DNA of 36,032 nucleotides from Candidatus Cloacimonadota bacterium (lineage in GTDB: Bacteria > Muiribacteriota > UBA6191), in the NCBI GenBank assembly GCA_019454875.1, contig JACFNL010000030.1:1-36032 (forward strand). Direction: 5' to 3'. The translations under genes and the position numbers were made by a program. Within the stretch, counting starts at the first letter, position 1. Each line of letters starts with the position of its first letter. This document shows positions 23,748 to 35,251 of this stretch, one piece after another. The notes under the pieces are model-generated. The model was not told where the DNA came from. It did no database searches and saw nothing but the letters and a program-made list of their open reading frames with translations.

Positions 23748-25370
23748 ATGAATTTTCGTAAGACCCTGCTTGGCCTGATTGGTTCTCTGGCCGTGTCTTC
23801 TCAGTTGATTGCTGGAAGTTTTGAAGAAGGATATCAGTTAATGAGGCAGTCCATGCCTGAATCAGACAGAAATGCAGCGGTAGAGCAGTTTTTTGTGCCT
23901 GTCACCAAGAGGGTGGATGACAGGGGTAATGAACTGTTTTCTTATGAAAAACAGATTGGCGGGGTCAGGGTATTTGGAGAAAAGAAACTGATTGTTTTCC
24001 CTAAGGAAGAATCCGAATTCTCTCATCTTCAAAGCCTCAGAACCATGACAGCGGAAGATATAGAGTTTGTAAAGGCTCATAAAGGGTTAAGGCCAGAACC
24101 AGTTCTGACCCAGGATCAGGCAACTAATGCGGCCATTCGTGATCTCAGGCAGAAGCAGGCATATATTTCCACTCCTTTGCCAGAGCATTTAAAAAGACCT
24201 ACTGAACTGGTCATGTATAAAAATGCGAATAAAGAATATCGTCTGGTATACCACATGGTGTTACCGGGGCAGATCATGATGCAGCCTTCTGCTTTTGATT
24301 ATTTTGTAGATGCTGAAACCGGAGCCATTGTGGATAAGGCTGGGCAGCTTTATGACATCAAAGGTCAGGGGATCGATTTAACAGAAGGCAAGACACATAA
24401 CTTCCCGGTGGAGGAAGATAAGGCCGGATTCCGTATGGAGGATAAGGCTCGCAATCTGCATGTTTACAACGGCAGTGCCGGCAAGTTTTCTACAGATGAT
24501 GATAATATGTGGGATAGAACGGGCACTTTGCGTAAGGAAAATCAAAGAGCAGAGGTTGAGCTTTATGTAAACATGGCTAGGACCGTGGATTATTTTAAGG
24601 ATCGCCATAACTTTGTCTGGAAAGAGGGCAAAGCTCCTGTAAAGGCCACAGCTCATGTCAGGGATAATTTTAACAACGCTTATTATTCTTCCTGGGAAGG
24701 TGGGTTTTTCTTTGGTGATGGTTCCGGTGATGAGAATGGTTTTGATTATCTGACCAAGGGTCTGGATGTAGCCGCTCATGAATTCACTCATGGAGTGATT
24801 GATCTCTGGTGTCCCTTGACATACAACGGTGAGTCCGGTGCCTTAAATGAGCATATTGCCGACTTTTTTGGGGCCATGGTGGACTCGGATGACTGGCACA
24901 TGGGGGACAACATTACCATCGGTGATAATCCATCTTTAAGGAATATGCAGGATCCTACCCGGGGTATGGGAGATCTCATCCCAGAGGGTATGAAGTATGC
25001 TGACTGGGCCCAACTGGGTAAAAAACATGGTTTTAAGGGACGGATTTATCCTGATAGAGTCAGTAAGAAAATTATCTGTAATGGCTGGGGCGAAGACAAT
25101 GGGGGAGTTCACATCAATTCTTCCATTTTCAACAAGTTTGCCTACATGGCTACTACGGGTAATGAAGTTGCATCTGAGGGCTTAGGTCATGACCTGATGG
25201 CAGACATTTATATGCGTGTCTTAAAGAACCGTATGTTGTCTAGCAGGGCTTCCTTCACAGAGTTTAAGGAGAGATTCATGGCGGCTGCGGATCTTCATCT
25301 GCAAGGACATGCCAAACGGGATGTTTATCTGGCTACTATCAATCAGGCTTTCAAAAAAATTGACCTGTAA
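23748..25370 (+). CDS. Secreted M4 (thermolysin-like) metalloprotease
   Basis: This 540-residue preproprotein has a signal peptide (about 1-22, ending LIAG). An FTP/PepSY-type propeptide covers about 25-225. The M4 catalytic domain has zinc ligands H344 and H348 in HEFTH, E345 as general base, E368 in GALNEHIADFFGAMVD as third ligand, and H455 in GGVHINSSIFNKF as the transition-state histidine. Calcium-binding-type acidic loops (GDGSGDENG) precede the zinc motif. All catalytic residues are present, so it should be an active extracellular protease. It has its own promoter and a strong terminator. Confidence 0.95.
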   Translation: MNFRKTLLGLIGSLAVSSQLIAGSFEEGYQLMRQSMPESDRNAAVEQFFVPVTKRVDDRGNELFSYEKQIGGVRVFGEKKLIVFPKEESEFSHLQSLRTMTAEDIEFVKAHKGLRPEPVLTQDQATNAAIRDLRQKQAYISTPLPEHLKRPTELVMYKNANKEYRLVYHMVLPGQIMMQPSAFDYFVDAETGAIVDKAGQLYDIKGQGIDLTEGKTHNFPVEEDKAGFRMEDKARNLHVYNGSAGKFSTDDDNMWDRTGTLRKENQRAEVELYVNMARTVDYFKDRHNFVWKEGKAPVKATAHVRDNFNNAYYSSWEGGFFFGDGSGDENGFDYLTKGLDVAAHEFTHGVIDLWCPLTYNGESGALNEHIADFFGAMVDSDDWHMGDNITIGDNPSLRNMQDPTRGMGDLIPEGMKYADWAQLGKKHGFKGRIYPDRVSKKIICNGWGEDNGGVHINSSIFNKFAYMATTGNEVASEGLGHDLMADIYMRVLKNRMLSSRASFTEFKERFMAAADLHLQGHAKRDVYLATINQAFKKIDL

Positions 25371-25388
25371 TATTTTATCCTAGATATG

Positions 25389-25418
25389 GAGCCGGCCTTG
25401 TGCCGGCTCTTTTTTTTT
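25389..25418 (+). terminator. Rho-independent terminator after the M4 protease
   Basis: A perfect 8-bp GC-rich stem (GAGCCGGC / GCCGGCTC) with a 5-base loop is followed by nine T residues, 18 bases after the protease stop. Confidence 0.93.
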
Positions 25419-25452
25419 CCGATAGTAGGTTTTGTACAACCAGGGAGGAATT

Positions 25453-25776
25453 GTGGGTCTTGTGCAGTGGAGAGAAAATCTGAACCAGCTGGTACGACAG
25501 CTTAACAATCAGAAAAAAAGGTATCAGGATCAGTTTTCCGGCAAGGGAATTGATGAGGTTGATTTTGATGAATTTGAAGAGTATCGCCGTGAAATGTTAA
25601 GGCTTCAGGGAGAGTGGACGGCCCAACTGCGTACAGTCCAGGAGTCCATGCTTGATAAAGGGGTGGAGCAGATGCCGCCCGAAATCAGTAAAATCAATCA
25701 GATGCTGATTCGCATTCTGCAAAGAAACAAAAAATTAGCTTCGGAAATTGATAAATACAAACAATCGATCCACTAG
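25453..25776 (+). CDS. Small cytoplasmic coiled-coil protein
   Basis: The product is about 107 residues from GTG 25453, preceded by GGGAGG at 25443-25448. A TTG seven codons upstream is less likely because the ribosome-binding site would then be inside the gene. The sequence is almost all helical and highly charged (NQLVRQLNNQKKRYQDQF, EEYRREMLRLQGEW, LIRILQRNKKLASEIDKY), which predicts a coiled coil. There is no signal peptide and I recognise no family. It sits between the protease terminator and the His/Cys-rich gene. Confidence 0.75.
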   Translation: MGLVQWRENLNQLVRQLNNQKKRYQDQFSGKGIDEVDFDEFEEYRREMLRLQGEWTAQLRTVQESMLDKGVEQMPPEISKINQMLIRILQRNKKLASEIDKYKQSIH

Positions 25777-25799
25777 ATTGCCAAGAATTCCGCTTGAGC

Positions 25800-25901
25800 C
25801 TCAGATTTGGCAGAGTGGGAGTTTGTTGGTATTTGTTGGAGCTTGCATCATGAGGTAATCTGAGATGTGGTTACACAGAAAGGAAGTACCTCATGAAGCA
25901 A
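25800..25901 (+). promoter_or_regulatory. Structured leader: 15-bp inverted repeat enclosing the ribosome-binding site and burying the start codon
   Basis: TTGCATCATGAGGTA (25843-25857) pairs with TACCTCATGAAGCAA (25887-25901) with one mismatch. The second arm contains the ATG at 25893, and the 29-base loop holds the AAAGGAAG ribosome-binding site. A second inverted repeat pairs CTCAGATT (25800-25807) with AATCTGAG (25857-25864). CCTCA at 25799-25803 could compete for TGAGG in the first arm. TTTGTTGG is repeated at 25822 and 25832, ten bases apart. A translation-control role is inference. Confidence 0.55.
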
Positions 25902-26534
25902 TTGATTTCTACTATCGCACTAGTCGCCGTATTTGTATCTCAGGTTTGTTCCCACGGTCATCATCATGGATATCAGCATGATGGACGAAAGTATGTCTAT
26001 TATCAGCCTGCCTTAACTGCAAGCTCTGCTCCTCATAGCTTTGAAGAGCCAAGAGTAAAACGATATAAGGCGGATCGCTGCTGCAACGAAGTCACAAAGC
26101 GGGTTGTGTATTCCCGTCCAGCCATGACTCGTGAAATTGTTTACACACACACCAAGGCACCTGCTCACTGGAGCTGTGATCCATGTGGTAACAATCGCTG
26201 CCGTCAAAGAGTTCACTATGTGAAGGATCAGTGTGGTGGTTGCCATAAAGTGGTTCAAAGCTGCAGATGCAAGCCAGTATGCCGCACAGTGAATAATGTT
26301 GTTAAGGAAGTCAACGGCGGGTCTCCCCGTTATGTTGTGAACGGAACAATTAAAATTTGTGATGAGCCACAAAAAGGGCGCGCCACAGTGGGAAATTATC
26401 ACTGGCACTGGAATCAGGCCGATCCACACTATCGTAAACGCCCGGTTTATGTCGATGAAAAACACGGTCGCAGTACAGTTTATACTCCTGGACATCACCA
26501 TCGTGTAGCTCAGAGCCATTACTATTATTATTAA
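25893..26534 (+). CDS. Secreted His/Cys/Tyr-rich protein of unknown function
   Basis: This 213-residue protein has a signal peptide (MKQLISTIALVAVFVSQVCS) followed at once by HGHHHGYQHDG. The mature part has about 11 cysteines in clusters (RCCNEV, SCDPCGNNRC, DQCGGCHKVVQSCRC, KPVC) and many histidines and tyrosines. The C-terminus is PGHHHRVAQSHYYYY. It is basic. The clusters look like metal-binding or disulfide-bonded surface material. CGGCH formally matches a haem-c motif, but the surroundings do not look like a cytochrome. I recognise no family. The neighbour downstream is also secreted, and both end at the same terminator. Confidence 0.82.
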   Translation: MKQLISTIALVAVFVSQVCSHGHHHGYQHDGRKYVYYQPALTASSAPHSFEEPRVKRYKADRCCNEVTKRVVYSRPAMTREIVYTHTKAPAHWSCDPCGNNRCRQRVHYVKDQCGGCHKVVQSCRCKPVCRTVNNVVKEVNGGSPRYVVNGTIKICDEPQKGRATVGNYHWHWNQADPHYRKRPVYVDEKHGRSTVYTPGHHHRVAQSHYYYY

Positions 26535-26552
26535 GATTCTGGATTGATATAT

Positions 26553-27266
26553 ATGAACAAAAAATTGATTCTACTGATTATGATGCTTACAGTATCAGGG
26601 ATAAAAACCCAGGCATCCTGCGGCAGAAATCCCAATTGTTCCAAGGCGTTCTTGTATCCTGGTTATGATGTCATGTACTCACCAGAGGACTGGTGGTCTT
26701 TGGAAAAACATCCATCGGGAATTGATTCCATGTATATTGCACCAAGAAGATTTGAGGGAATGCGCAATCACTCAATGGCTGTTTCTCCTGAGCAGGTAGC
26801 AATTGTGTGGAATATGGCTGACTGTATGGCCAATGCTCCGGAGGTTGCCTATTCTCATGCAGCGGTTATTCATGACGATTTGGGAGAACCTCATCATATT
26901 CGTCTTGAGTGGGGCTCATGGTATGAGACTAAAAGTCGTGGATTAGGTTTTATCAACAAAAGGCAGCATGTTCATTATGTGAGAGCCACTATAGATAATC
27001 GTCTTCTATTTGTAGTAGATGATTATGTCGGTGATGGTCTTTATGAATATGAGGATTTTTTCAGGCTAGGAAACCGCAGCTTTCGCTTGACGGTGAACTT
27101 AAAATCCCGTCGCCACAACTTTGACTTTGCTTCGACACTTCTGGCATTTACTCCTTCAGTGACCGAAGGGAAGATGAAGGCTCCGGCTTCTCCTACCCCA
27201 AAGTCAAAAACTCCGACAGCTAAACCGAAGATGCAGGCTAAGGCTCTACCTAAACTGGAAAAATAG
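26553..27266 (+). CDS. Secreted protein of unknown function
   Basis: The product is about 237 residues from ATG 26553; a TTG three codons upstream is less likely. A signal peptide (MNKKLILLIMMLTVSGIKTQA) precedes a Cys pair (SCGRNPNCS) and a globular, aromatic-rich middle (DDLGEPHHIRLEWGSWYETK, VHYVRATIDNRLLFVVDDY). The tail is a disordered Lys/Pro/Ala/Thr-rich stretch (ASPTPKSKTPTAKPK). The middle has the alternating pattern of a beta-sandwich, but I cannot assign a family. It starts about 18 bases after the His/Cys-rich gene and is followed by a terminator, so the two are probably one unit. Confidence 0.78.
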   Translation: MNKKLILLIMMLTVSGIKTQASCGRNPNCSKAFLYPGYDVMYSPEDWWSLEKHPSGIDSMYIAPRRFEGMRNHSMAVSPEQVAIVWNMADCMANAPEVAYSHAAVIHDDLGEPHHIRLEWGSWYETKSRGLGFINKRQHVHYVRATIDNRLLFVVDDYVGDGLYEYEDFFRLGNRSFRLTVNLKSRRHNFDFASTLLAFTPSVTEGKMKAPASPTPKSKTPTAKPKMQAKALPKLEK

Positions 27267-27279
27267 TTATTGGAATTTG

Positions 27280-27312
27280 GCCCGGCTGGATTAATCTAGT
27301 CGGGCTTTTTTT
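27280..27312 (+). terminator. Rho-independent terminator after the secreted-protein pair
   Basis: An 8-bp stem (GCCCGGCT / AGTCGGGC, one G-U pair) is followed by seven T residues. The T run overlaps the stop codon of the convergent gene on the - strand. Confidence 0.85.
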
Positions 27313-28724: not shown

Positions 28725-28754
28725 AAGGAATGCAGTATATCATTGCGGGCCAGT

Positions 28755-28782
28755 TTGATCCTCACTATGCATCTGTTATAAT
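28755..28782 (+). promoter_or_regulatory. Sigma-70-type promoter very close to the HEAT-lipoprotein start
   Basis: TTGATC (28755-28760), a 16-base spacer and a consensus TATAAT (28777-28782) are present. Transcription would begin near 28789, about five bases before the ATG at 28794. That implies a near-leaderless mRNA unless another promoter is used. Confidence 0.5.
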
Positions 28783-28793
28783 TGGGGCCGGGT

Positions 28794-29969
28794 ATGAAAA
28801 TTTCTAGGTTTATATTGCCAGTCGGGTTAAGTCTGGCCTTGTCAGGTTGCTCTGGTGGCCCATCTCCTTTTTCTGAGGAGCTGTATCAGGCTGAGGAGCA
28901 TCTGGTTCGTCTTGAGCTTGATCAGGCTCGCAAAGTACTGGCAGGTATCCGTCAGAGTTCTAATGAATTGCCGGAACGGTATTATCAGAATTCCATCCGT
29001 GTGCATCTGGCAGCTTTTGAATTTCAGCAGTCCCTGGCAGAGTTAAAACGCTGGCAACAGGCAACTGGGGTTCAAAGACCTAAGGAACGCACTAAAATTC
29101 TTTTAGCATGGCTGCGGCATTTTTCTGAATACACGGATCTTTCCATTCGCTTTGAAGCCCTGAAGGCACTTGGTGAGATGAGGGATCAGTCTTCAAAAGA
29201 CATCCTGATGCAAAATTTTGAATACCCTTCGCGCACAGTACGAATTGTCGTCTGTTATGCCATGGCCCTTTTAGGAGACAAGGAAAGGGCCCTGACTTAT
29301 CTGATGGAGCGAGCCCGATACGGTTCCCTGAAACAAAGGGCCTTATCTGCCCTTTTTCTGGCGGAACTCAAAGATGTTGCACTTATTCCCGTGTATCGCT
29401 CCTTTCTTGAGGATCCCGAAAACTCCATTCGCTCCATTGGAGCTACTGTTCTGGCTGATTTACGGGCTACAGAGGCCAAATCAGCCCTTACAAAAATCTT
29501 GAAAGAGACATTGGATCCGAGAATGAAAATGACTATGGCACATGCTCTAGTCCGTCTCGGTGATGATCAGTATATGAGAATTATTGAGGAGTTGAGAAAC
29601 AATCACCTGTTCAAACTGGATGCAGAACTTTTACTTTACGATTTAGGCAGAACGGGCCTTGAGGACTCTGTTTTGGCTCGATTGGATGAACTCGATGCGG
29701 AAAGCCGCTTTGTGTTTATGCGTTCCATGATTCGGCATGGCAGGCAGGACAAGGTCAGGGAACTTTTATCTGAAAAGCTCGGGAGTCTTACCGGTACAGC
29801 TTTTGAGAAAAAGATGGAACTTGAGCTGATGGCTCTGGTAGGCACGGCAGAAGATCTGGATAAACTTGAGGTCCATATGAGTTCCCCGTTTGAGGAAGTC
29901 AAGGTAGTTGCCGTCAAGACCTGGTGGCAGATTCAGGAAAGACTGAATTCTTCCAGGGAAGCCATCTAA
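28794..29969 (+). CDS. HEAT-repeat lipoprotein
   Basis: The product is about 391 residues. The signal peptide has a lipobox (LALSGC, Cys at 19), so it is a membrane-anchored lipoprotein. A Glu/Leu-rich helical region is followed by HEAT-like helical repeats (about 110-280: FEALKALGEMRDQSSKDIL, VRIVVCYAMALLGDKERAL, RALSALFLAELKDVALIP, IRSIGATVLADLRATEA). Such repeats act as protein-binding scaffolds in the periplasm. Start ATG 28794 is chosen because it begins the signal peptide; a TTG four codons earlier is in frame. It diverges from moxR. Confidence 0.85.
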   Translation: MKISRFILPVGLSLALSGCSGGPSPFSEELYQAEEHLVRLELDQARKVLAGIRQSSNELPERYYQNSIRVHLAAFEFQQSLAELKRWQQATGVQRPKERTKILLAWLRHFSEYTDLSIRFEALKALGEMRDQSSKDILMQNFEYPSRTVRIVVCYAMALLGDKERALTYLMERARYGSLKQRALSALFLAELKDVALIPVYRSFLEDPENSIRSIGATVLADLRATEAKSALTKILKETLDPRMKMTMAHALVRLGDDQYMRIIEELRNNHLFKLDAELLLYDLGRTGLEDSVLARLDELDAESRFVFMRSMIRHGRQDKVRELLSEKLGSLTGTAFEKKMELELMALVGTAEDLDKLEVHMSSPFEEVKVVAVKTWWQIQERLNSSREAI

Positions 29970-31399: not shown

Positions 31400-31467
31400 C
31401 AGAAGCCTCACAAGTTCGCAACGAGTAGCGTAAACAGTTCCCACTCAAAATACGATAGTCAGGATGA

Positions 31468-31485
31468 TAAGTTGCGTTCAACTTA
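31468..31485. promoter_or_regulatory. Inverted repeat in the divergent intergenic region
   Basis: TAAGTTG and CAACTTA form a perfect 7-bp inverted repeat around CGTT, nine bases upstream of the ATG at 31495 and between two divergent genes. It could bind a regulator or form a hairpin at the ribosome-binding region. Confidence 0.4.
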
Positions 31486-31494
31486 CAAAAAACT

Positions 31495-33360
31495 ATGGAA
31501 AATATGCGAATTGTCGCTGTTCTGGCACTATCAGCCATTTTAGTCTTTTTTTCCGGTTGTACCGGAGCGACTCCGCCTATCCCGGATCCTGTGCCCGGAC
31601 AAGTAACAGGCAGTATTCTTGATACTACAAACAAGGCTGTCAATCAGGCTGATGTGCGCCTGGAAAATACGATCTGTCTTAGAAATCAACGGTGCCGTTC
31701 TGCCATTACAGATACAAGTGGCAAGTTTCAGTTTCCTCTGGCTGATGTGGGATTGTTTGATTTAGTGGCCGAAAAGACCTTGAGTGGTATTCCCCATGCC
31801 GCTCGAATCCGTCATCTGAACATTCAGGGTGAATCCCTGGTGGCCCGTGATTTACAGATGCGTCCTGTGGGAAGTATTGATGGTTTTGTCAAACTGGAAG
31901 GTTATACCAATCATTCCGGAGTGCTCGTGCAGTTGATCGGTACCAACCAATCCGTAACGACCACGGCAGGAGGGTATTTTAAGTTCAACAATGTGGCCTA
32001 TACCTATCGTGATACAGCAAGAAACATCACTTATGTGTACCAGATTCAGTTTGCCCGTGATGGTTTTGGACTTAGAACCGTTGACAATATTGAGGTATTT
32101 GCCAATAACAATACAAGAATTGTAGTGAATCGTGATCCTGAGGGCATGGTGATTCCTGATTCGGATACCATGATTTTAAGAAGCCTTGATCCATCTGGCA
32201 CAGGAGACATTGAGGGTACTGTTCTTTTAGAGGCCAGAACCGGAGCGGAAGGCTCAGAGATTGAACTTTTAGGAACGGCTTTGCCTGTTATCAAAATTGT
32301 TTCGGACAATTCAACAGAAAACTCTTTCAAGTTTCAGGGTGTGCCAGTAGGTACCTACAGTGTGGAGGTTCGGCATCCGGATTATGTAACCCAAAGAGTC
32401 AATGTTGCCTTGAGCCAGGGGCAAAACAGGGTTGAAACCAGTATTTCACTGACCAATGTAACCCATTTTGCCTCGTATCAGAAGGCCTGGGATCTGGTGT
32501 TGTCCCCCGGTGGGCATCAAATTGCCTATGTCAAAGACATGCCCTCGGATACCAGAGCCAACCGTGAGATTTATCTGATGGATAATTTCGGTAACAACTA
32601 TGACAGAAGAATAACCACGGAGGCCAAGGCAGCCAATGAAGACCGTGGTATGAGCTGGTCATGGGACGGCAAATATCTGCTATTTGTAGAAAAGAACGAA
32701 AATTCCATCAACCAGTTTTATCGTCTGGTAAGTGTATCATCCAGCGGGGGGTTTATTACTCCGCTCACTCCTTATATTTCTGATGTGATGCAGCCCGCAT
32801 TTGAGCCCCGGGGGATGCGGCTGGCCTATCTGAAGTTCGATACTGTTGGGCAGATAGCCCTTGCCACTCTTGTGTCCAAACCTTCGGGTCTGGCTTTAGA
32901 AAATGAAACCCTGGTCTTGTCGGAACGCAACTCACAGATTGGTCGCAATCAGTATAGTTCCATGGAGTTTGGTTTAAACGATCGGCTTCTGTTCACCCGG
33001 GATGCTAATTTTGTGGATCTGGAGTCCGAAGTGGGCACATTTACCGTTCCGGCTTCAGCCAATGGAAACGCCTTATTGAAGTTTAAGGTGTTTGGCTCCA
33101 CCTCTGCCAATGCAGCCACCTTTAACCCGGACAATTCCAAAATTGCCTACAGTGTTTCCCCGGATCACGAAACACCCACAACCCCAAGAGGGACCTACAT
33201 GGCAAATATCGACGGCTCAGGCAAACAAAGAATATCCCTGGCCTGGGGAAGGGCCCTGCAGATCTCACCGGATATGAGCCACATCTATTACATAGATCAA
33301 AGATCCAGCTGGTTAAGACGCATCGGCACCGTAATAATTCCAGAACGATGGCGTAAATAA
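31495..33360 (+). CDS. Large lipoprotein: carboxypeptidase-regulatory domains plus TolB-like propeller
   Basis: The 621-residue protein has a lipobox (VFFSGC) after a short signal peptide. Residues about 35-120, 120-210 and 235-320 are carboxypeptidase-regulatory-like beta-sandwiches (GSILDTTNKAVNQADVRLEN, FKFQGVPVGTYSVEVRHPDY, IDGFVKLEGYTNHSGVLVQL). Residues about 325-620 are TolB/PD40-like propeller repeats (LSPGGHQIAYVKDMP, MSWSWDGKYLLFVEK, FNPDNSKIAYSVSPD, ISPDMSHIYYIDQRS). No catalytic site is visible. It is an envelope-anchored scaffold, perhaps a surface or peptidoglycan-associated binding protein. An internal ATG at 31504 is an alternative start. It stands alone downstream of an inverted repeat. 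Confidence 0.88.
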   Translation: MENMRIVAVLALSAILVFFSGCTGATPPIPDPVPGQVTGSILDTTNKAVNQADVRLENTICLRNQRCRSAITDTSGKFQFPLADVGLFDLVAEKTLSGIPHAARIRHLNIQGESLVARDLQMRPVGSIDGFVKLEGYTNHSGVLVQLIGTNQSVTTTAGGYFKFNNVAYTYRDTARNITYVYQIQFARDGFGLRTVDNIEVFANNNTRIVVNRDPEGMVIPDSDTMILRSLDPSGTGDIEGTVLLEARTGAEGSEIELLGTALPVIKIVSDNSTENSFKFQGVPVGTYSVEVRHPDYVTQRVNVALSQGQNRVETSISLTNVTHFASYQKAWDLVLSPGGHQIAYVKDMPSDTRANREIYLMDNFGNNYDRRITTEAKAANEDRGMSWSWDGKYLLFVEKNENSINQFYRLVSVSSSGGFITPLTPYISDVMQPAFEPRGMRLAYLKFDTVGQIALATLVSKPSGLALENETLVLSERNSQIGRNQYSSMEFGLNDRLLFTRDANFVDLESEVGTFTVPASANGNALLKFKVFGSTSANAATFNPDNSKIAYSVSPDHETPTTPRGTYMANIDGSGKQRISLAWGRALQISPDMSHIYYIDQRSSWLRRIGTVIIPERWRK

Positions 33361-34885: not shown

Positions 34886-35251
34886 TTAGCGAATCCCATA
34901 CCAGGCAATTAGTCCCCATCCCACCAGAAACAGGGTTCCGCCCAGAGGAGTGACAGGGCCCAGCCAGCGAGGACCGCCATTGGCCAGCCAGTACAGACTG
35001 CCAGAGAAAAACAGAATGCCAGCAATAAAACAGTACCCGGCAATCTTAAGCAGGGGATCTGATATTCCCAGCCGTGAGGCAAATCCCAGAATCAAAAGGC
35101 CCAGACTATGTAAAAACTGATACTGCACTCCGGTTTGAAATACAGCCAGAGAAGCCTCACTGAGTCGCCCTTTCAGACCATGAGCAGCAAATGCCCCCAA
35201 AGCCACCCCGATTAACATTCCAAGCGATCCAGCAAACAAAAACCATTTCAT
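34886..35251 (-). CDS. DUF423 membrane protein (YgdD-like)
   Basis: The 121-residue protein has four hydrophobic segments and the DUF423 signature GAFAAHGLKGRLS followed by FQTGVQYQFLHSLGLL. FSGSLYWLANGGPRWLGPVTPLGG (quoted in part) is the other conserved block. The function of this inner-membrane family is not established. It is the first gene of the DUF423-ppa-ZIP operon; the gap to ppa is 17 bases. Confidence 0.92.
   Translation of the reverse strand: MKWFLFAGSLGMLIGVALGAFAAHGLKGRLSEASLAVFQTGVQYQFLHSLGLLILGFASRLGISDPLLKIAGYCFIAGILFFSGSLYWLANGGPRWLGPVTPLGGTLFLVGWGLIAWYGIR

Follow-up and report, generated by a model that had tools for sequence, protein, structure and literature searches.

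A leader hairpin burying the start codon of a His/Cys-rich protein gene in one genus of the phylum UBP17: a probable translational control element

Does the inverted repeat that encloses the start codon of a His/Cys-rich protein gene control translation of that gene and, if so, what opens it? An earlier note had singled out the repeat as a translation switch or thermometer-like element; we followed it through the window (the whole 36,032-base stretch of DNA analyzed) and through related genomes. The repeat is present, its hairpin is very stable, and it is conserved in one sister species. It is probably a translational control element, a start-codon-burying leader hairpin restricted to one genus, and is as such a fresh instance of an already known type of element.

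An inverted repeat around a start codon

The gene and the parts of the repeat are located as follows.

25843..25857, plus strand: 5' arm of the hairpin, TTGCATCATGAGGTA; identical at L022:1993-2007 (same-genus contig)
25858..25886, plus strand: 29-base loop; encloses the inner hairpin TGTG-GTTA-CACA as well as AAAGGAAG; identical in L022
25879-25886, plus strand: Shine-Dalgarno sequence AAAGGAAG, within the hairpin loop
25887..25901, plus strand: 3' arm of the hairpin, TACCTCATGAAGCAA; contains the start codon (25893-25895), 14/15 bases identical in L022
25893..26534, plus strand: His/Cys-rich gene, the gene under putative control; 213 aa with 12 Cys and 18 His

The arms are complementary at 14 of 15 positions, and the 29-base loop, the AAAGGAAG within it, and the ATG in the 3' arm are all as the earlier note had read them. 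Searching the window for repeats with at least 14/15 pairs at spacings of 3 to 60 recovers this repeat and no other; across 30 first-order Markov shuffles of the full window a single such repeat arose, a chance expectation of 0.03 per window. Each arm carries the self-complementary sequence TCATGA. The 59-nt hairpin has a predicted stability of −26.2 kcal/mol (shuffle mean −9.7, SD 2.5; z = −6.6) that none of 1,000 dinucleotide shuffles matches; its interior is predicted to form the four-pair UGUG-GUUA-CACA hairpin and three further pairs that take in part of the Shine-Dalgarno sequence.

The start context MK is common to all four orthologues of the protein, which speaks against a misassigned start codon. 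Freeing bases −18 to +15 at this start costs 20.3 kcal/mol, ranking 1 of 27 starts (median 9.9), these being our own uncurated pick of likely genes from the list of open reading frames in the window; the corresponding start in the same-genus sister species costs about 21.8 to 21.9 kcal/mol. The runner-up, at 34919 on the minus strand, costs 19.4 kcal/mol (the start there may be wrong), so a high opening cost alone is not unique. At 37 °C the ATG is predicted to be unpaired 0.1% of the time, both in the window and in the sister species.

The predicted fold places the start codon in a stable stem in both species, and this location within a leader hairpin is what would favor an RNA thermometer; fourU and ROSE thermometers, in the partial descriptions available to us, likewise have a leader hairpin covering the translation start. 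The hairpin here, however, is far too stable, its Shine-Dalgarno sequence is not paired with a UUUU stretch, and Rfam gives no thermometer match. A folding series from 10 to 65 °C leaves the ATG paired (0.8% unpaired at 65 °C), and GGAAG, unpaired ~45% at 37 °C, shifts little with temperature. Because the ATG is predicted to remain paired up to 65 °C, we consider the thermometer-like behavior once suggested for the element very improbable. The accompanying suggestion that it belongs to no recognized riboswitch class agrees with the Rfam search, which returned no match above the gathering score in the window; the two sub-threshold matches lie on the other strand and are to a human lncRNA and an miRNA family.

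Conservation and setting of the hairpin

The class comprises eight genomes, and the His/Cys-rich gene is found in four of them: the window's own, one of the same genus, and two of a sister genus. Protein identity to the window's copy is 92% in the same-genus genome (contig DITF01000384.1, bacterium UBP17_UBA6191) and 42 to 43% in the two sister-genus genomes. A scan of genome contigs for further relatives returned one locus, on the DITF01000384.1 contig again. Both same-genus genomes are draft assemblies.

The window and the same-genus contig are 80% identical across 10,390 aligned bases. Third codon positions of the His/Cys-rich gene agree at 128/213 (60%) and short spacers at 12/18 and 30/44 (67 to 68%), whereas the 116-nt spacer that bears the hairpin agrees at 110/116. 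From 25843 to 25900, the repeat minus its final base, 58/58 bases are identical; the run is bounded by differences at 25842, just before it, and at the last base of the repeat, just after. Windows of 58 bases with zero differences number 22 of 10,219 and fall in three blocks (25843-25900, 28732-28789, and 31465-31541). The latter two are divergent intergenic regions running into gene starts, without such a repeat; their equal conservation means that constraint on the leader is established, not that it acts on RNA.

Other features of these regions were noted in passing. In 31465-31541, 77 bases are identical in the same-genus contig; 47 of them belong to the coding part of the gene that starts at 31495, although variation at third positions would be expected there. 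The conserved divergent region 28732-28794 contains a good promoter (TTGATC-16-TATAAT at 28755-28782), and for the adjoining HEAT-repeat gene ATG 28794 is the probable start, not TTG 28782. The sister contig encodes on its minus strand a 409-aa gene (L007:3468-4697) for which the window has nothing equivalent in the interval from 27266 to 27311.

How far does the pairing itself extend? Its conservation in relatives, on which the earlier note had made its proposal depend, is split: the pairing is kept within the genus and absent from the sister genus, where the starts are ordinary. The two sister-genus orthologues (G002 and G003) lack the hairpin, with opening costs of 9.8 and 7.8 kcal/mol, and the hairpin is therefore genus-limited. 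A covariance model (R1) run on 56 genomes matched only in the two same-genus genomes; a partial match of 31 nt in a further genome (G019; E = 0.35) was taken as chance. Viral contigs gave no match to one exact 31-base hairpin pattern. Between the window and the sister species, the pairs of the leader hairpins are invariant at 17/19, 16/17, and 4/4, with one one-sided change and two broken pairs. No compensatory change occurs among these 40 leader pairs in a comparison of two sequences that are identical over the element bar its terminal pair, so covariation cannot be claimed. In the sister-genus leaders (L009:3520-3536 and L010:4084-4110), a common stretch ending GGAGGGCAA...CTTCAAGGAGAA stands before the start, unlike that of the window.

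That the repeat is a functionless accident gains something from its having turned up in a scan of the whole window and from its absence in the sister genus. The 0.03 expected per window speaks against such an accident, as does the retention of 58/58 bases in the sister species where third codon positions agree at 60%, and we regard it as improbable.

The surroundings of the repeat hold the following features.

25388..25418, plus strand: intrinsic terminator-like site closing an M4-peptidase gene (peptidase by Pfam)
25453..25776, plus strand: 107-aa gene, present in two of the eight class genomes, the same-genus pair G000 and G001
25779..25831, plus strand: upstream hairpin predicted in the leaders of both species; z = −3.4 (window) and −2.6 (sister)
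25800-25807 and 25857-25864, plus strand: second repeat, CTCAGATT / AATCTGAG; not kept in the sister species
25807..25835, plus strand: promoter-like TTGGCA-N17-TATTTG, its second hexamer preceded by TG; weak, found under looser rules

The 116-nt spacer lies between the 107-aa gene and the His/Cys-rich gene. No terminator was found between the two, so the 107-aa gene is probably on the transcript with the His/Cys-rich gene; downstream, another gene begins at 26553, followed by a terminator-like site at 27279. The His/Cys-rich protein is probably secreted and has no match in Pfam (E 0.1), NCBIfam, or the PDB. It has 12 and 11 Cys in the two genomes of this genus vs. 2 and 2 in the sister genus, and 18 and 19 His vs. 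4 and 5. The Cys/His-rich stretch of the 25893-26534 product is apparently a genus-specific insertion. As the 107-aa gene and the Cys/His-rich form of the protein are both confined to the genus, the hairpin accompanies a lineage-specific gene and protein form.

Further upstream in the leader, the pairs of the upstream hairpin are invariant at 17/19, with one C-G changed to U-G and one terminal pair lost. The second repeat and a competing CCTCA (25799-25803), which had been thought able to form an alternative fold, both exist in this genome, but neither is kept in the sister species: the repeat loses 2/8 pairs and CCTCA becomes CCAGA. No conserved alternative stem that would free the start was found, CTCAGATT/AATCTGAG being the pairing so broken, and with the 3' arm blocked the predicted folds differ between the window and the sister species. 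Of the translation switch originally envisaged, what stands is a start-burying hairpin strongly kept in one close relative and without an Rfam match; the thermometer and the alternative fold fall away.

A simple scan for a sigma-70-type site in 25350-26000 found none, and the looser rules that yield the promoter-like site give six plus-strand sites of this kind across the window. Transcription from the site at 25807-25835 would start near 25842-25843, at the foot of the hairpin; depending on whether this site is real, the hairpin is either 5'-terminal or intercistronic.

What might open the stem

The reading that we favor, tentatively and as nearly as apt to be right as to be wrong, is that the leader hairpin limits translation and that the start is freed when the 5' arm is otherwise occupied, likeliest by a ribosome in the leader. 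The stem would pair the start codon and its flanks with sequence 44 bases upstream, leaving the Shine-Dalgarno sequence in a structured loop. By default the folded mRNA would initiate translation poorly; capture of the 5' arm by another agent would permit it. The likeliest such agent may be a ribosome on a mini-ORF within the 5' arm, or on a short frame ending in that arm, and a protein or a small RNA could equally take up the arm. We infer that one RNA spans the region, that the hairpin represses, and what the opener is.

25850..25858, plus strand: two-codon mini-ORF ATG AGG TAA in the 5' arm; a candidate ribosome landing site, recognized from sequence only

The mini-ORF is preceded by GGAG at 25838-25841 (GGAGG in the sister species). 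With a ribosome footprint modeled on it, the main start costs 5.2 instead of 20.3 kcal/mol to open (5.9 instead of 21.9 in the sister species); with a ribosome modeled at the end of the frame that begins at GTG 25815, the figure is 6.0 (6.1 in the sister species). The mini-ORF's own start is also buried by the stem, with opening costs of 22.0 and 23.5 kcal/mol, so a ribosome would need to load while the 3' arm is still unsynthesized. In both species every short leader frame is open, and coding therefore cannot be told from this comparison. Since the palindrome TCATGA places an ATG in both arms, the mini-ORF is partly a by-product of the repeat. A frame from ATG 25865 (AGGT as its Shine-Dalgarno sequence, 38 codons in both species) was set aside as not a gene, its peptide differing widely beyond the hairpin.

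By analogy, and as far as the available part of the account goes, the closest documented logic to the proposed opening is that of mgtQ-mgtB in Salmonella, where a start that is otherwise buried becomes free once an intergenic short ORF is translated (PMC8092293). The likeness lies in an intergenic spacer within a probable operon, a stem that takes in the ribosome-binding region of the second gene, and upstream short frames that could open it (PMC8092293). In contrast, mgtQ has eight codons and a strong AGGAGG, and its control runs through three alternative stems (PMC8092293); the mini-ORF has two codons and GGAG, and the sister species does not keep the alternative stem suggested for the present leader. 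A two-codon minigene in the axe-txe leader, according to the portion of its description at hand, frees a downstream start and resembles the mini-ORF in consisting of ATG, one codon, and TAA, and in lying ahead of a gene with a Shine-Dalgarno sequence of its own (PMC8708949). It lies 15 nt from the next start and, per its authors, in no strong structure, whereas the mini-ORF is 34 nt from the next start and inside a strong stem (PMC8708949). The translational attenuation of erm genes, in the excerpted account, shares a stem that hides the main start and is opened by an upstream ribosome (PMC5118997); the present leader, by contrast, yielded no leader peptide having a strong Shine-Dalgarno sequence or a recognized stalling motif.

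A bolder version of the favored reading, which we consider unlikely, is a self-facing start-codon switch, in which both arms hold an ATG within TCATGA and a ribosome landing on a decoy two-codon minigene in the 5' arm, equipped with its own Shine-Dalgarno sequence, would open the real start. Such a compact, genus-limited device might match output of the exported His/Cys-rich protein to the supply of ribosomes or of the AGG-reading arginine tRNA.

Competing readings and meaning

The conservation of the repeat may instead reflect a DNA operator of two half-sites, 44 bp center to center, with a promoter just upstream; we regard this as unlikely, though likelier than the other rivals. The leader is conserved as strongly as the two divergent intergenic regions, each arm contains the self-complementary TCATGA, and TTGGCA-N17-TATTTG ends just before the repeat, with none of the six leader differences falling in its hexamers. 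An operator would, however, sit oddly here, its downstream arm spanning the start codon with a 14/15 match to the other, and with at most one mismatch the 13-base arm occurs at only two other genome sites, while this locus alone in the genome carries the paired core CATGAGGTA...TACCTCATG. Allowing up to two mismatches, the 13-base arm has 102 genome matches vs. 46 for a reversed control that differs in make-up. Fifteen of the 102 were taken up, two being the repeat itself, and at the 13 other loci inspected there was no partner arm with fewer than four mismatches. These results make an operator private to this gene less likely, though they leave it some probability.

Two further possibilities keep the element in RNA. 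A 5'-terminal hairpin might protect the mRNA or set its processing by RNase III or E, with effects on translation secondary; the great stability of the structure and the +1 that the promoter-like site would place at the foot of the stem are consistent with this. Such a hairpin need not include a start codon, and the one here is the most occluded of those examined, which leaves protection or processing a rather doubtful explanation. An RNA-binding repressor such as CsrA might act on two GGA motifs, at 25838-25840 and at 25882-25884, which would be candidate CsrA sites by its consensus. A CsrA is encoded in the genome (C110:1874-2032; E = 1.8e-24), and both motifs are located within or next to loops and recur in the sister species; GGA, on the other hand, occurs in nearly every Shine-Dalgarno sequence, and we judge this repressor quite unlikely.

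The phylum UBP17 is listed as Candidatus Sogexiota, and in the part of that source available its genomes, other than the present one, come from marine and freshwater sites (PMC11382960); another UBP17 genome, again distinct from the present one, is described in a partly available source as coming from abyssal sinking particles (PMC9426571). The literature searched on UBP17 and Sogexiota, in the portions available, contained nothing on the hairpin locus. If a start-burying leader hairpin opened through its 5' arm is the correct reading, it would be the first candidate translational control element for this uncultured phylum, and its two arms would provide a simple way to test whether a decoy start gives access to the true one. 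It would also tie the emergence of the hairpin to that of the protein's Cys/His-rich segment, each being seen in this genus but not in the sister genus.
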